A stretch of DNA of 32,808 nucleotides, from positions 1 through 32,808 of the forward strand of contig CAIMZS010000650.1 of the NCBI GenBank assembly GCA_903846015.1, in the 5' to 3' direction. Of this stretch, positions 2,071 to 8,985 are shown piece by piece (within the stretch, counting starts at the first letter, position 1; each line of letters begins with the position of its first letter). Below the pieces are notes generated by a model that was given only the letters and a program-made list of their open reading frames with translations, was not told the DNA's origin and did not search any database. A program made the position numbers and the translations under genes. The DNA is from an uncultured Anaerolineae bacterium. Its GTDB lineage: Bacteria; Chloroflexota; Anaerolineae; Anaerolineales; Villigracilaceae.

Positions 2071-2206
2071 AAGGGTTTAGCAGCAGGAATACAAAACATA
2101 TTCGGCGATATGGCGATTAATGCATAACAACTAAAAATAGCCTTTCGAACAGATAAATTGCAGTTTACAATTTTGCAAGGATAGTACTGAAGGGCTACAA
2201 AAGTGA

Positions 2207-2212
2207 TATTAT
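2207..2212 (+). promoter_or_regulatory. -10 box (TATTAT) for the riboswitch-protease transcript
   Basis: TATTAT at 2207-2212 would give a start near 2219, about 15-20 bases before the riboswitch aptamer. The -35 region is poor. Position relative to the aptamer is the main support. Confidence 0.4.
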
Positions 2213-2235
2213 GTATTTGAAATATTGTAACGAAA

Positions 2236-2316
2236 AGGCAAAGCCGGTGAAAATCGGCGACGCAAAGCCACGGGTCTAAAGCCGGTAAACCCCGGAAATG
2301 ATCGCCAGGCTGCCGA
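2236..2316 (+). promoter_or_regulatory. c-di-GMP-I (GEMM) riboswitch aptamer
   Basis: The stretch matches the GEMM-I consensus in order. P1 pairs GGCA (2237-2240) with TGCC (2311-2314). A perfect six-pair helix (2243-2248 with 2253-2258) is capped by a GAAA tetraloop. Next comes the signature GACGCAAAGCCACGGG (2259-2274), then a second helix (CCGG 2282-2285 with CCGG 2292-2295), and the closing GCCAGGCTGCCG. This family binds cyclic di-GMP. It lies in the leader of the secreted protease gene, 84 bases before its start, and is followed by an intrinsic terminator. The class is firm; ligand affinity cannot be judged from sequence. Confidence 0.92.
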
Positions 2317-2342
2317 ATTCAAGACAAATTGCAGGACGTCTT

Positions 2343-2378
2343 GCAGGCCTGGCATAAAAATCAGGCCTGTTTGTTTTT
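2343..2378 (+). terminator. riboswitch expression platform: intrinsic terminator
   Basis: Two copies of the self-complementary CAGGCCTG (2344-2351 and 2362-2369) form an 8-bp stem followed by TTTGTTTTT, a classical intrinsic terminator between aptamer and protease start. The 5' arm GCCTGGC (2347-2353) is perfectly complementary to aptamer bases GCCAGGC (2304-2310). Aptamer closure and antiterminator formation therefore exclude each other. Ligand binding should free the terminator, which predicts that c-di-GMP turns the gene off. Confidence 0.85.
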
Positions 2379-2399
2379 CTCAGTAAGACGGAGGTCGCC

Positions 2400-4289
2400 A
2401 TGAAAACACAAAGATTAAGCCAAGTCCCTCGCATATTGATAATTGTTTTGATGTTTGCGCTGTTATTAACTCTGACTGGCGGTATGCCGGCAGCAGCGAC
2501 AGCCCCCAAACAATCATCCTATATCATCCAGGCAACAAATACTGAACTGGCTGAACAACTGGTAAGCAAACATGGCGGCTCGATCACCTCACGCCTGGAT
2601 ATTATCCATGCCGTTGGCGCCAACCTCTCAGACGAAAGCGTCAAACAGCTGCGGCTGGAGAAGGGTATCCTTGCCATCACTCCTAACAGCGCTGTAAACT
2701 CGAGTGACAATGGCAAGGACAAGAGCAAGGACAATGGCAATGGCAATGACAAGGAAAAAAAGTTCAGGGCCACTAAAAACGCACAAAACGTCCCTTCTAC
2801 CGATTATCCGAATGTGGTGGGGGCCGATATTGTTTGGGGAGAAGGCACCATCGGTTCTGGCATCGCAGTGGCTGTGCTCGATACTGGTCTCGGTGACCTG
2901 CCAAGCCTGACCCAAACGGTGAAAAACAAATCCGGGCGCATCGTGGCCTGGAAGGATTTTATTGACAACAGCAAAAAGCCCATCGACCCGAATGGTCATG
3001 GCTCGCATGTGGCTGGGATTATCGCCAACAGCGAAAAGGGTACGGACGGAGAATGGAATGGCATCGCTCCAGGCGTCAACCTGGTGGGTGTTCGTGTACT
3101 GGATGAAAGCGGCGCTGGATCATACGAAAGCGTCATATCCGGTTTGCAATGGGTTATTGAGAACAAATCACGTTACAACATCCGTGTGGTCAACCTCTCG
3201 CTGGTTTCACAAGTTCAATCGCCTTACTGGGCAGATCCTCTTAACCAGGCAGTGACCCAGGCATGGGCCAGTGGCTTGACCGTGATCGTTGCGGCTGGAA
3301 ATAGCGGCCCACAGGCCATGAGCATCTCAGTACCAGGGAATAACCCCTACGTTGTCACGGTAGGCGCTTTTACCGATAACTTTACACCCGCGGATTGGAG
3401 CGACGACTATATTGCCCCGTTCTCATCGGCTGGCCCTACCCTGGATGGCTTTTCCAAACCAGACGTAGTGGCCCCAGGGGCACACATGTTATCGCCCATC
3501 CCCGCCAACTCGTTCCTGACAAAAGAGTACCCGAGCAACCAGCTTAGCGACAATTACTTCAGCCTGGCCGGTACATCGCAAGCCACCGCAGTTATATCCG
3601 GCATCGCAGCCCTGGTCATTTCGAACAACCCTCATCTCACTCCTGACCAGGTCAAGAATCGCCTGACCTCAACAGCTTACCCGTGGATCGATAACTCCGG
3701 AGATGTTGCACTGTACAGCATGTGGCAGCAAGGCGCAGGCCGCGCCAGTGCTCCAGAAGCCGTCTTCTCAGACTCTACTGATGCTTCCAACCAGGGAATG
3801 GACATTCGTTCCGACCTTACTGGTAAAATCCACTACGAAGGTTTCGCTTACTACGATGAAACCACCGGCACTTACCGACTGCGCGCTCCCTTCGATGAAT
3901 GGGCTGGTGGATATGGCACGTGGGATGGCAAGTACGGCGTGTGGTCCGGCAAGTACGGTGTATGGTCTGGCAAGTACGGCGTGTGGTCTGGCAAGTACGG
4001 TGTATGGTCTGGCAAGTACGGCGTGTGGTCTGGCAAGTACGGCGTGTGGTCTGGCAAGTACGGCGTGTGGTCTGGCAAGTATGGTGTGTGGTCCGGAAAA
4101 TACGGTGTATGGTCCGGGGGCTACAGCGTGTGGTCTGGAAAGTACGGCGTATGGTCTGGATCTGAAGATATAAGTGGCTCACTGATCGCTGATCCCACCT
4201 TCATCGCCAATTTCGCAGCAGGTTTGAGCCCGGACGCATCCATCTCGAACGCAACAACATCCTTCTTCACAGAGGATCCCAACCCCTAA
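2400..4289 (+). CDS. secreted subtilisin-family (S8) protease with C-terminal YGVWSGK repeats
   Basis: A 629-residue pre-pro-protease. A signal peptide (about 1-33) is followed by an I9-type inhibitor prodomain (about 39-98) and an Asn/Lys-rich linker (100-125). The S8 catalytic domain (about 135-455) carries Asp161 (VLDTG), His200 (GHGSHVAG), oxyanion Asn301 and Ser393 (GTSQA), all intact. Residues 505-588 are twelve tandem 7-residue units, mostly YGVWSGK, followed by a 41-residue tail. No sortase or S-layer anchor is seen, so it is exported by Sec and then free or held by the repeats. GGAGG just before the ATG fixes the start. It stands alone in its transcript, controlled by the upstream c-di-GMP riboswitch and ended by a strong terminator. 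Subtilisins with short VWS-type tails are known in related bacteria; the function of such tails is not known to me. Confidence 0.93.
   Translation: MKTQRLSQVPRILIIVLMFALLLTLTGGMPAAATAPKQSSYIIQATNTELAEQLVSKHGGSITSRLDIIHAVGANLSDESVKQLRLEKGILAITPNSAVNSSDNGKDKSKDNGNGNDKEKKFRATKNAQNVPSTDYPNVVGADIVWGEGTIGSGIAVAVLDTGLGDLPSLTQTVKNKSGRIVAWKDFIDNSKKPIDPNGHGSHVAGIIANSEKGTDGEWNGIAPGVNLVGVRVLDESGAGSYESVISGLQWVIENKSRYNIRVVNLSLVSQVQSPYWADPLNQAVTQAWASGLTVIVAAGNSGPQAMSISVPGNNPYVVTVGAFTDNFTPADWSDDYIAPFSSAGPTLDGFSKPDVVAPGAHMLSPIPANSFLTKEYPSNQLSDNYFSLAGTSQATAVISGIAALVISNNPHLTPDQVKNRLTSTAYPWIDNSGDVALYSMWQQGAGRASAPEAVFSDSTDASNQGMDIRSDLTGKIHYEGFAYYDETTGTYRLRAPFDEWAGGYGTWDGKYGVWSGKYGVWSGKYGVWSGKYGVWSGKYGVWSGKYGVWSGKYGVWSGKYGVWSGKYGVWSGGYSVWSGKYGVWSGSEDISGSLIADPTFIANFAAGLSPDASISNATTSFFTEDPNP
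3912..4163 (+). repeat. 12 tandem 21-bp units encoding YGVWSGK
   Basis: Twelve in-frame 21-bp units without spacers. Units 4, 6, 7 and 8 are identical at DNA level and units 3 and 5 are identical, so a 42-bp pair (3-4) was copied as 5-6 and a single unit amplified after it. The outer units (1 and 9-12) have drifted: YGTWDGK, YGVWSGG, YSVWSGK and YGVWSGS. This is the pattern of recent slippage or unequal crossing-over in the array centre. All changes keep the frame. Confidence 0.97.
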
Positions 4290-4303: not shown

Positions 4304-4348
4304 AAAAAATGTCCCTGGCAAGATTTTGCCGGGGACATTTTTATTTTA
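4304..4348 (+). terminator. intrinsic terminator after the S8 protease
   Basis: A long hairpin pairs AAAAATGTCCC with GGGGACATTTTT, extended by TGGCAA/TTGCC around a short GATT loop and followed by TTATTTT. It begins about 15 bases after the protease stop. The A-rich left side lets it work in both directions. Confidence 0.9.
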
Positions 4349-5396: not shown

Positions 5397-8300
5397 TTAC
5401 TTTTTGAGATCCAACTGCATTTTAATTATTTCCAGCTTTTGAAGATCCAGCCTGGCCCCGAGCTGCTCAAGCAATTTGCGCGCCAGGAGAAGGCAGGATT
5501 TTGCCAGCAAACGATTCGATTCGGCTGATGCAATCCTCGCCAGGCTAACCAGTAAGCGCCCACGTTCCAAACGGTTACCGGCTGCATCGAAAATGACTTC
5601 AGCTTCATGACAAAGTTTCTTGGCAGTCGATAAATCATTGGAGGCCAGCGCAATATCACCCAGCAAACGCAAGGCGCGACCCTTGTCCTCGGTCTGGGCA
5701 TCTCCACCAACCCGTTGAAGCATTTCAAGCGCAGCATTACCATACTGCGCCGCCTTGGGAAGGTTGTTCATTCCCAGGAAAATGGTACCCAAGTTGACAT
5801 AGACATCTACCAGGTATTCCTGATCATCAAGGCTTTTAAAGATCTCCTCGCTGCGGAGGCTATACTCAAGCGCAGAAGGCCAATCTCCCAGAGCAATAAA
5901 TAGCTTGCAAAGGTGATGGTTACTGAGAGCAATGTTGTAATTGAGACCAAGCTGCTGAGCACGATTCCAAGCTTCCTTCAAATATTGGCGAGCCTCATCC
6001 GGGTAGCCACGATCAATTTGCAGTAATCCCAGATTGTTGTTTAGTTCAATAATGGCTTCCACATCGCCCAGATTGGATTGAAGCTCAGCACTGCGCTTGA
6101 AGTCGACCAGAGCTTCATCCCAAAAACCACGCTTCCAACCAAGCAGGCCCAAATTGTTGTGAGAACGAGCCACGCCAAGAATATCGCCGATTTCCTGTCG
6201 AATAGCCAGGCTTTTGGCAGCAAAATCGCTGGCTTCTTTCAGCCGATCCTTTTGATAATACACCCCGCCCATACGATTGTAGATGGATGAAACAACATCC
6301 AGGCGGGTAGTTTTCTCAGCCAACCCCTGAGCGTGCTTGAGGTATTTTTCGGCATCATCCAATTTACCTCGCCGGAAGTAAATCCAGCCAGTATCATTTA
6401 AGATTTGAGACATCTCGGCTGGTGAATCAACCCTGGCCTGAAGCAGAGTCTTTCTAGCCAGGTCCAGGCACTCCAGCGCCCGATCGTAATCACCCTGGCG
6501 CTCGTAAGTCATGCCGATTTTACGCTGCAAACCGCAGATATTTTCTGTATAGTTATTTGCTTCGGCAGCGATGTCGTGAACGGCCAATTCATAAGCTGTG
6601 CGCGTGGCAGGATAATCCCCCGCAAGAGCAAAAGCATCGCCTAAACCGCTATGAACCTGAAGGGCCTGGAAGGCGGTATGGGGTGTATCGGTCAGCAAAC
6701 TGGCGGCATCTTCAAAATATTTTTGAGCTTGAGCAGTGTTGTAGTTTCGCCCGGATTTTTGTCCAGCAAGTATCAGGTAATACAAAGCGCGCTCTTTACG
6801 ATCGCTCCAGAAATAATGGCGGGCAAGAACGTCGATTTGATTTTCGATATGATCAGCAGAGAGCTTTTCGATAACATCTGCCACCACACCATGCAATTCT
6901 TTGCGTTCGCGTTTCAACAATGTGCTGTAAATTGTATCTGATACGAGAACATGCTTAAACATATACTCACCACCCGGTGATCTATCCGGAAGGATGAATT
7001 CACGATCAAGCAGAATTGTAAAAGAGTCGATCACTTCATCACTGGTCAAACCTGGCAGACATTCGATCACCACAGCGGATGTAAAAGCCCGACCGATGAC
7101 ACTCGCCACTTTGAGAACATGGCGTTGAACCAATTCGAGGTGATCAAAACGAGTCAGGATCAAGCCTTCGAGAGTGTCTGGAACACCCAGGGTAGCCAGA
7201 TCAACTTGTTCAACAAGCTGCCAGTGACCATCTGAGCGATGGAGCAGCTGACGATCCATGAGCATGCGCAAGATTTCTTCGAGATAGAGCGGGATACCAG
7301 ACGCCCGTTGCACGATATGATTGCGCAGCGTCTCGGGCATATTCTGAATTGCAAGCAGCTGTGAAAGCAAGCGATCGGCTTGATCTGGCGATAGACTCTT
7401 TAGCGAAAGATCCGTAAAACGCAAGCGTAATTGATCACTGGCCTTCTTGGCAATTTCTGCCAGTTTATCATCAACAAAAGATCGTGAAACAGCCACAATC
7501 ACAATCGGATGCTTTAAGAGGATTTCGATAAGAAAATCCAGCAATTCCAAAGAACCAGAATCCGCCCAATGCAAGTCTTCCAGTATCAAAACAATGGGTT
7601 TTTGGTGAGCTTCTGCCAAAATAAATTCACGCATCACCAAAAATATTTGCTGGCGGAGTTGATCCGCAGCCAGGTATTCGATACGTTTTGCCGCACCGGG
7701 ATTCGAAAGCGGAAGCGAGAGTAAATGCTCAAGATATGGCAAAATATCATCGACGCGATCGGGCAAAACACTGCTGATGCGTTGAATCAGCCTGGTCTGA
7801 CATTCAGTTTTTGGGGTATCTGCATCGGCTTCGAGCATTCGAAGCAAAACATCCTGAAAAATCCAGTAGGATACACCTTTACGATAAATAAGGCTGTAGC
7901 CTTCATGAACTTGAACCGGTAACTGAGATAAAAAGGATTTAAACTCAGAAATAAGTCGGCTCTTCCCAATTCCAGCCTCGCCGCTGACGGCCACAAAACG
8001 ACCGGTCTTTTCACTAACCATGGCATTAACATTCTGACGCAGACGTTCAAGTTCGCCATCACGCCCAATCATGGGCGCATACAGACCCTCGATGCCGCGC
8101 ACAGAACCTGGTTTGGTGCTTGCGCCGGTTACGCGATACGTTTGAACAGGTTGGCCAACTCCCTTTAGCTGGATTGGTGCCAGTGCCTCAAATTCAAACA
8201 AGGTGCGCACCTGGCGATAAACAACATCGCTGACCAGGATCGTATCTGATTCCGCTGCAGTTTCAATCCGGCTGGCCAGATTTACCACATCACCGATGGC

Positions 8301-8879
8301 GGTGTAATTCATCATCATGTTCGAACCAATACCACCGACAACAACGTTACCAGAATGCAGTCCAATATGGGCTTTAATTTCGGAGCCTATCCGTTTTTTC
8401 AACTGCTCACTGATCTTTTCGAGATCTGTTTTCATGTCAAGTGCTGCCCGGATGGCCAGTTCTGCGTTGTTTTCATGGGCAATGGGTGCACCAAAGAGAG
8501 CCATCAGGCCATCACCAGTAAATTTATCAACAATGCCATCGTATTTATAAACATCATTGGCAAACATTTTGGTGCACGTTTGAACAAGTTCGTATAATTC
8601 TTCGCTGTCTATTTTCTCAGAGAGATGGGTATAACCGGAAAGATCAACAAAAACCACGGTAACCTGACGACGCTGTCCCGCTGCCTCGAGGCCGGCCTGC
8701 CGAAATCGATCCAACAGGTCCGCGCCAATCAAAGCGCCAAACATGGTATTGGTTTCTGGCTCGACAACTGGTTCAATAGAATGCAGCATGCCAGTACCAA
8801 GAAGGCGCAGCCCGCAGTTTCCGCAGAAGCGCATATTGGCTGGATTGACAAAACCGCAGTTTCTACATTGGATGGACAT
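5397..8879 (-). CDS. zinc-ribbon / class III adenylate cyclase / AAA ATPase / TPR regulator
   Basis: An 1160-residue cytoplasmic signalling protein. A zinc ribbon comes first (C5, C8, C19, C22). The class III cyclase domain (about 70-250) retains metal Asp79 and Asp123, base-selecting Lys119 and Thr193, and transition-state Asn200 and Arg204. These are the class IIIb pattern for making cAMP. A STAND-type AAA ATPase follows (about 265-690), with Walker A GEAGIGKS at 300-307 and a Walker B/LHWAD motif. The C-terminal half (about 690-1150) is a run of tetratricopeptide repeats. This layout is common in Chloroflexota, Cyanobacteria and Actinobacteria; ligand and output are generally unknown. All catalytic residues are present, so activity is likely. 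It is monocistronic with its own -10 and terminator. Palindromes upstream may be regulator sites. Confidence 0.92.
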   Translation of the reverse strand: MSIQCRNCGFVNPANMRFCGNCGLRLLGTGMLHSIEPVVEPETNTMFGALIGADLLDRFRQAGLEAAGQRRQVTVVFVDLSGYTHLSEKIDSEELYELVQTCTKMFANDVYKYDGIVDKFTGDGLMALFGAPIAHENNAELAIRAALDMKTDLEKISEQLKKRIGSEIKAHIGLHSGNVVVGGIGSNMMMNYTAIGDVVNLASRIETAAESDTILVSDVVYRQVRTLFEFEALAPIQLKGVGQPVQTYRVTGASTKPGSVRGIEGLYAPMIGRDGELERLRQNVNAMVSEKTGRFVAVSGEAGIGKSRLISEFKSFLSQLPVQVHEGYSLIYRKGVSYWIFQDVLLRMLEADADTPKTECQTRLIQRISSVLPDRVDDILPYLEHLLSLPLSNPGAAKRIEYLAADQLRQQIFLVMREFILAEAHQKPIVLILEDLHWADSGSLELLDFLIEILLKHPIVIVAVSRSFVDDKLAEIAKKASDQLRLRFTDLSLKSLSPDQADRLLSQLLAIQNMPETLRNHIVQRASGIPLYLEEILRMLMDRQLLHRSDGHWQLVEQVDLATLGVPDTLEGLILTRFDHLELVQRHVLKVASVIGRAFTSAVVIECLPGLTSDEVIDSFTILLDREFILPDRSPGGEYMFKHVLVSDTIYSTLLKRERKELHGVVADVIEKLSADHIENQIDVLARHYFWSDRKERALYYLILAGQKSGRNYNTAQAQKYFEDAASLLTDTPHTAFQALQVHSGLGDAFALAGDYPATRTAYELAVHDIAAEANNYTENICGLQRKIGMTYERQGDYDRALECLDLARKTLLQARVDSPAEMSQILNDTGWIYFRRGKLDDAEKYLKHAQGLAEKTTRLDVVSSIYNRMGGVYYQKDRLKEASDFAAKSLAIRQEIGDILGVARSHNNLGLLGWKRGFWDEALVDFKRSAELQSNLGDVEAIIELNNNLGLLQIDRGYPDEARQYLKEAWNRAQQLGLNYNIALSNHHLCKLFIALGDWPSALEYSLRSEEIFKSLDDQEYLVDVYVNLGTIFLGMNNLPKAAQYGNAALEMLQRVGGDAQTEDKGRALRLLGDIALASNDLSTAKKLCHEAEVIFDAAGNRLERGRLLVSLARIASAESNRLLAKSCLLLARKLLEQLGARLDLQKLEIIKMQLDLKK

Positions 8880-8919
8880 TTGACGATCGACCTGTAATGA
8901 AAAGTAATGTGATAGCCCA

Positions 8920-8935
8920 GCTTCGCAAGCGAAGC
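8920..8935 (-). repeat. inverted repeat in the cyclase 5' leader
   Basis: GCTTCGC-AA-GCGAAGC is a perfect 7-bp inverted repeat 41-56 bases before the cyclase start. An adjacent CCGCT/AGCGG pair lies at about 8937-8957. It sits between the -10 box and the start codon, so it would be in the mRNA leader. Confidence 0.6.
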
Positions 8936-8985
8936 GCCGCTGATTTACAAGGTAGCGGACGAGTAAACAAAGATACCCTAATTGT

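Follow-up and report, generated by a model that had tools for sequence, protein, structure and literature searches.

The window analysed here is a stretch of 32,808 nucleotides, which constitutes contig C650 of an uncultured Anaerolineae genome (6.5 Mb in 662 contigs), and it raises the question of whether, and in which direction, the gene of a secreted subtilisin-like protease is controlled by c-di-GMP. The reading favoured below, to which a probability of about 0.85 is assigned, is that this gene would be controlled by a c-di-GMP-I riboswitch that has a single aptamer and an OFF platform acting through transcription termination. An initial annotation, made from the sequence alone, had proposed such a switch; its observations are confirmed, and its interpretation is partly supported. 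The aptamer class, the terminator, the mutually exclusive helices, their conservation in the orthologues and the lasting link with the gene were shown computationally.

The gene (2400..4289, plus strand) lies behind a strong Shine-Dalgarno site, GGAGGT (2390..2395, plus strand), and encodes a complete S8 subtilase of 629 amino acids (Pfam PF00082, E 4.7e-52), for which the nearest solved structure is 3afg. The protein comprises a signal peptide recognised by inspection, a prodomain-like region, the catalytic domain and C-terminal heptad repeats, and no anchor is evident on inspection of the sequence. Residues D161, H200 and S393, which make up the Asp/His/Ser triad, and the oxyanion N301 show no variation across 13 aligned relatives. 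The domain match and the catalytic residues, together with the signal peptide as judged by inspection, bear out the earlier description of the product as a secreted subtilase. The catalytic domain and its residues are common to S8 subtilases such as Tk-SP (PDB 3afg); unlike these, the window protein carries a C-terminal W-G heptad domain, which among the sequences compared is peculiar to this Chloroflexota family. It consists of 12 heptad repeats of the form Y-G-V-W-S-G-K (residues 505-588; 3912..4163, plus strand). Comparable W-G heptads are found in all orthologues with an intact C-terminus, each relative having its own near-uniform version (RGAWAGG, HGSWAGG, GFWADG and others), which is a sign of concerted evolution. 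An AlphaFold model of the subtilase built with 13 sequences was unusable (mean pLDDT 51.6, about 20-30 in the repeat domain), and an ice-binding beta-roll in the repeats, hinted at by a Pfam match (E 9e-4) below the family cut-off, was set aside.

Exactly one structured RNA above the Rfam threshold is present in the window, a c-di-GMP-I (GEMM-I) aptamer at 2227..2317 on the plus strand, which matches RF01051 over the full model (1-87) with 76.2 bits (gathering threshold 35) and an E-value of 1.8e-13. The GEMM-I class proposed earlier, for which an Rfam structure-model search had been named as the check, is therefore upheld, and its location stands with the borders moved outwards from 2236-2316. 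The full-length match and the canonical G at the specificity position are typical of RF01051, whereas the short predicted P1 and the Chloroflexota-type GCCAGGC 3' strand set the window aptamer apart. An intrinsic terminator follows wholly outside the aptamer, 25 bases 3' of its end, with a stem at 2343-2370 on the plus strand (10 pairs, 8-nt loop, tail TTGTTTTTC, -16.5 kcal/mol) and a U-tract at 2371..2379 (plus strand); the terminator with a T-run placed at 2343-2378 by the initial annotation is thus confirmed.

Three plus-strand segments of this leader are central to the proposed control. The A strand (2304..2313) is the 3' strand of aptamer helix P3 with J1/3 and, by fold and duplex computation, is also the antiterminator strand; the T strand (2343..2353) is the 5' arm of the terminator and, by the same computation, the alternative partner of A; the H strand (2362..2370) is the 3' arm and shows compensatory changes with T in relatives. 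An exact 7-nt complement had been noted between 2304-2310 (GCCAGGC) and 2347-2353 (GCCTGGC) and is present in the sequence. The antiterminator formed by the aptamer strand is, however, longer than these 7 bp, comprising 8 contiguous pairs (2304-2311 with 2346-2353) in the best fold of the shortened transcript and 10 pairs with one bulged G (2304-2313 with 2343-2353) in the duplex calculation. It also includes a linker hairpin, AAGAC/GTCTT (2321..2342, plus strand), which spaces aptamer and terminator, has similar counterparts in the folds of most relatives and, in the folding model, would help bring the A and T strands together. Inside the aptamer the antiterminator strand, the lower P3 3' strand, pairs with 2266-2273. 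Since aptamer and antiterminator both use this strand, the two are mutually exclusive, and the leader thus has the makings of an OFF platform, in which the aptamer 3' strand is able to pair with the terminator 5' arm. For the same reason the compensatory mutations suggested earlier in 2304-2310 and 2347-2353 would not be clean, because the former is the P3 strand and 2347-2351 belongs to the terminator stem.

The terminator 5' arm is complementary to the 3' end of the aptamer beyond chance. The expected number of pairs is 8.8, as against 1.5 after dinucleotide shuffling of linker and arm; of the 200 shuffles, 1% reach 8.8. The plain duplex energy is equalled in 10% of arm shuffles and is weaker evidence than the expected pairs.

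Folding of successively longer transcripts gives the antiterminator as the free fold for ends at 2353-2365, where aptamer-enforced folds are 4.4-5 kcal/mol worse, and the antiterminator has an ensemble probability of 0.99 for ends at 2354-2364. From a transcript end of 2366 onwards the terminator has a probability of at least 0.94, with the exception of 0.73 at 2375, and it is favoured by the ligand-free full-length RNA (0.97 at 2380). A polymerase on the U-tract covers about the last dozen bases of the RNA, so that the RNA exposed at the point of decision ends near 2364 and would be antiterminated without ligand. The earlier reading, in which transcription proceeds without ligand, is thereby refined: transcripts ending at 2354-2364 fold as antiterminator, and at full length the terminator is preferred. 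Control must therefore be kinetic, because the full-length terminator wins with or without ligand.

Ligand binding, the direction of control in vivo, the promoter and the biological role are matters of inference, and the course of events may be pictured as follows. The leader would be transcribed from its own promoter just upstream. Were c-di-GMP bound before about position 2353 had been transcribed, the A strand (2304-2313) would be retained in the aptamer, the T arm (2343-2353) would be free to form the hairpin with 2362-2370, and the polymerase would stop at 2371-2379. If no ligand were bound, the A strand would capture the terminator arm and transcription would reach the subtilase gene, the antiterminator being metastable and the choice kinetic. 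The Cd1 riboswitch of Clostridioides difficile, a proven OFF switch with the order aptamer-A-T-H, was measured and modelled to behave in this way, with a transient antiterminator that relaxes to the terminator (PMC9262584). The window leader resembles Cd1 in strand order, in its proposed kinetic OFF logic and in the alternation of the aptamer 3' strand with the terminator 5' strand; it differs in that Cd1 controls the flagellar operon and has a longer platform and a putative pause site, whereas the window T strand lies about 30 nt past the aptamer and is separated from it by a linker hairpin. An OFF logic in which an aptamer strand serves as antiterminator, as first proposed, is thus supported by folding, by this Cd1-like layout and by its conservation in 19 leaders.

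These leaders comprise that of the window, 14 from GTDB genomes scanned with the protease, a scan that yielded 18 loci, and four from aptamer-protease pairs found in whole-genome searches. An aptamer, either c-di-GMP-I or the RF03167 variant, lies just upstream in 14/14 Chloroflexota relatives at 48% identity or above; none was found upstream of the protease-scan loci of Herpetosiphon (36% identity) or of a Clostridiaceae relative. A clear terminator is present in 18 of the 19 leaders and a weak one in L016. Pairing of the terminator 5' arm with the aptamer 3' end is predicted in all 19; the expected pairs number 4.8-12.8, as compared to 0.2-2.8 for shuffled sequences (15/19 at 3.5% or below, 19/19 at 8% or below), although the leaders are homologous and do not constitute independent tests. 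In alignment A1, 93% of the antiterminator cells pair in the main register, as compared to 9-47% when the register is slid. The antiterminator helix in this register shows little covariation (one double change), since one side is already constrained by the aptamer, and the conservation of the A strand is partly due to the aptamer. In the terminator helix, both partners have changed at 4/8 pairs. The sister loci L014 and L017 pair through different bases (ACCGAAC with GTTTGGT), and L021 and L016 maintain the pairing with further different bases; such pairing that survives sequence change is better evidence than conservation of the main register. Beyond the subtilase leaders, 22 other GEMM-I leaders from Anaerolineae have a terminator, and in 18 of them its arm pairs with the aptamer in the same way; this platform is the rule in the lineage.

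The foremost alternative is constitutive attenuation, wherein the terminator works irrespective of ligand and the aptamer is vestigial or weakly coupled. It draws on the equilibrium preference of the ligand-free full-length leader for the terminator, and a failure of kinetic capture would indeed mean constant termination. Against this, the 19 diverged leaders retain the aptamer and a complementary arm, with register shifts that preserve the pairing, and the antiterminator is preferred in the RNA exposed up to 2364, which is approximately the polymerase-free part at the U-tract. Constitutive attenuation is thus considered unlikely.

A second alternative concerns the ligand, which might be 3',3'-cGAMP or another nucleotide instead of c-di-GMP. 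The identity of one base, G in c-di-GMP sensors and A in cGAMP sensors (PMC9481103, PMC6274999), is decisive here; it corresponds to model position 11, equivalent to G20 of Vc2 and A14 of the Geobacter cGAMP riboswitch (mapping from PMC6274999; also PMC9481103). This base is G in 15/19 leaders, including that of the window, A in L015 and L020, and C in L011 and L017, while L019 and L021 fit RF03167 better than RF01051; these orthologues lend the alternative what support it has. The window itself has the c-di-GMP-type G at 2237 on the plus strand (PMC9481103), and its aptamer is therefore expected to sense c-di-GMP, another ligand being very improbable. Several leaders elsewhere in the same genome, on C210, C561, C627 and C333, have A (cGAMP type) or C at this position and not G.

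Comparably improbable is an ON switch, in which ligand binding favours readthrough as in the GEMM-I examples Bc3-5 of B. thuringiensis and pilM of Geobacter, since the pilM terminator is made of aptamer strands whereas in the window leader neither terminator arm belongs to the aptamer and the competitor is the aptamer's own 3' strand; an ON architecture was rejected on this strand order.

An extended -10 element, TGATATTAT (2204..2212, plus strand), with the TG-n-TAnnAT pattern conserved in close relatives, is the candidate promoter element of the leader, and a transcript start near 2219 would be expected from it. The other leaders mostly have -10-like hexamers just 5' of the aptamer, some with a -35 at 17 nt. 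A generic sigma-70 scan gave matches on the minus strand only and did not list the element at 2204-2212. A further motif, TTTTGCAAGG (2171..2180, plus strand), conserved in an alignment of 8 upstream regions from close relatives, sits about 27 bases before the -10 element and is too far for a -35. Each leader probably has its own promoter, because it persists behind upstream genes that vary among relatives; on the same grounds, the sole promoter is unlikely to be one that reads through from the Band_7 genes upstream. These are two adjacent Band_7/SPFH genes (188-2070), which the window shares only with G001 among the relatives seen. On the other side, a Cyclase-AAA_16-TPR protein gene (5397-8879, minus strand) is convergent with the subtilase gene; an AAA/TPR relative is the downstream convergent neighbour in most relatives, and the window copy has a nucleotide-cyclase domain. 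Between the two genes lies a strong hairpin, TGTCCC...GGGACA (4306-4344), with T-runs on both strands, which is probably a two-way terminator.

The genomes closest to the host in the protease-based scan are Anaerolineae/Chloroflexi MAGs, and the distribution of the switch over the subtilase tree points to essentially one acquisition of the aptamer-subtilase pairing, subsequently retained across about 50% protein divergence. When the presence of the riboswitch is mapped on a maximum-likelihood tree of 53 proteins, 2 changes are required, as against a mean of 15.8 for shuffled labels. The riboswitch is absent from L036, a relative from the same order at 56% identity, and Rfam-detectable GEMM-I was absent from the stretches examined in 28 further relatives from the class (40-53% identity), a few of which (e.g. 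L126, L127, L138) start near a contig end without upstream DNA.

The closest precedent is PPEP-1 (CD2830) of C. difficile, a protease that is likewise secreted and whose gene is governed by a class I c-di-GMP riboswitch (PMC11477304). In this species the class I switches turn transcription off, and the adhesins shed by PPEP-1 are themselves ON-regulated (PMC11477304). By analogy, the window would share with it a secreted protease gene behind a c-di-GMP-I OFF switch and the making of protease at low c-di-GMP, perhaps trimming surface or matrix proteins in the PPEP-1 manner. PPEP-1 is a metalloprotease whose known adhesin substrates are oppositely controlled by class II switches, whereas the window enzyme is an S8 subtilase from the Chloroflexota, for which no oppositely controlled adhesin was found. 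Production of the protease on leaving surfaces or flocs, as first proposed, is hypothetical. A broader proposal, considered doubtful, is that of a clade-wide convergent counterpart of PPEP-1, in which, once c-di-GMP falls, a subtilase with a rapidly homogenising W-G heptad tail would act on the surface or matrix of its own cell, and in some species (L015, L020) the leader would have switched to 3',3'-cGAMP. The OFF design is already known, and the long-conserved pairing with a subtilase in a Chloroflexota lineage appears undescribed; no report was found of a c-di-GMP riboswitch with a subtilisin or subtilase, or in Chloroflexi/Chloroflexota, in a search with limited coverage of subscription papers, so that absence is not proof.

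The c-di-GMP machinery of the host is ample, with about 31 GGDEF, 2 EAL and 19 HD-GYP-type domains over the cut-off. For the Anaerolineae, in which diguanylate cyclases are numerous and characterised c-di-GMP targets few, the switch would provide a concrete, testable output, and it would extend the theme of protease release at low c-di-GMP past C. difficile to a family of proteases unrelated to PPEP-1. Naturally occurring variants of the leader in register and ligand base form a comparative set for the evolution of GEMM-I platforms and specificity.

Further GEMM-I targets in the same genome are a secreted fn3/F5-8C protein, whose leader (L005) likewise looks OFF-type where the surface substrates of a PPEP-1-like dispersal module would be oppositely regulated, a PAS-GAF-GGDEF protein and a gene before an MTTB methyltransferase. 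The aptamer of the second (positions 6213-6294 of locus L091, on C561; 39.9 bits) precedes a diguanylate cyclase gene (6478-8946 of the locus), and feedback on c-di-GMP synthesis is possible there. Three abutting c-di-GMP-I aptamers with a period of about 83 nt occur outside the window at C333:3064-3340 (L087), and similar triple arrays are found in related genomes at L099, L102, L103, L106, L107, L108 and L109. They have no terminator between the aptamers and one terminator-like hairpin after them, unlike the characterised B. thuringiensis triple with one platform per aptamer, and the middle aptamer is often lower-scoring. Arrays of the L087 type drive no gene, because the next gene is convergent; the related arrays L100, L101, L104 and L105 do stand before genes. 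The gene-less arrays are more surprising than the window switch, and at L103, where the upstream gene is divergent as well, the arrangement suggests a stand-alone c-di-GMP-binding RNA.
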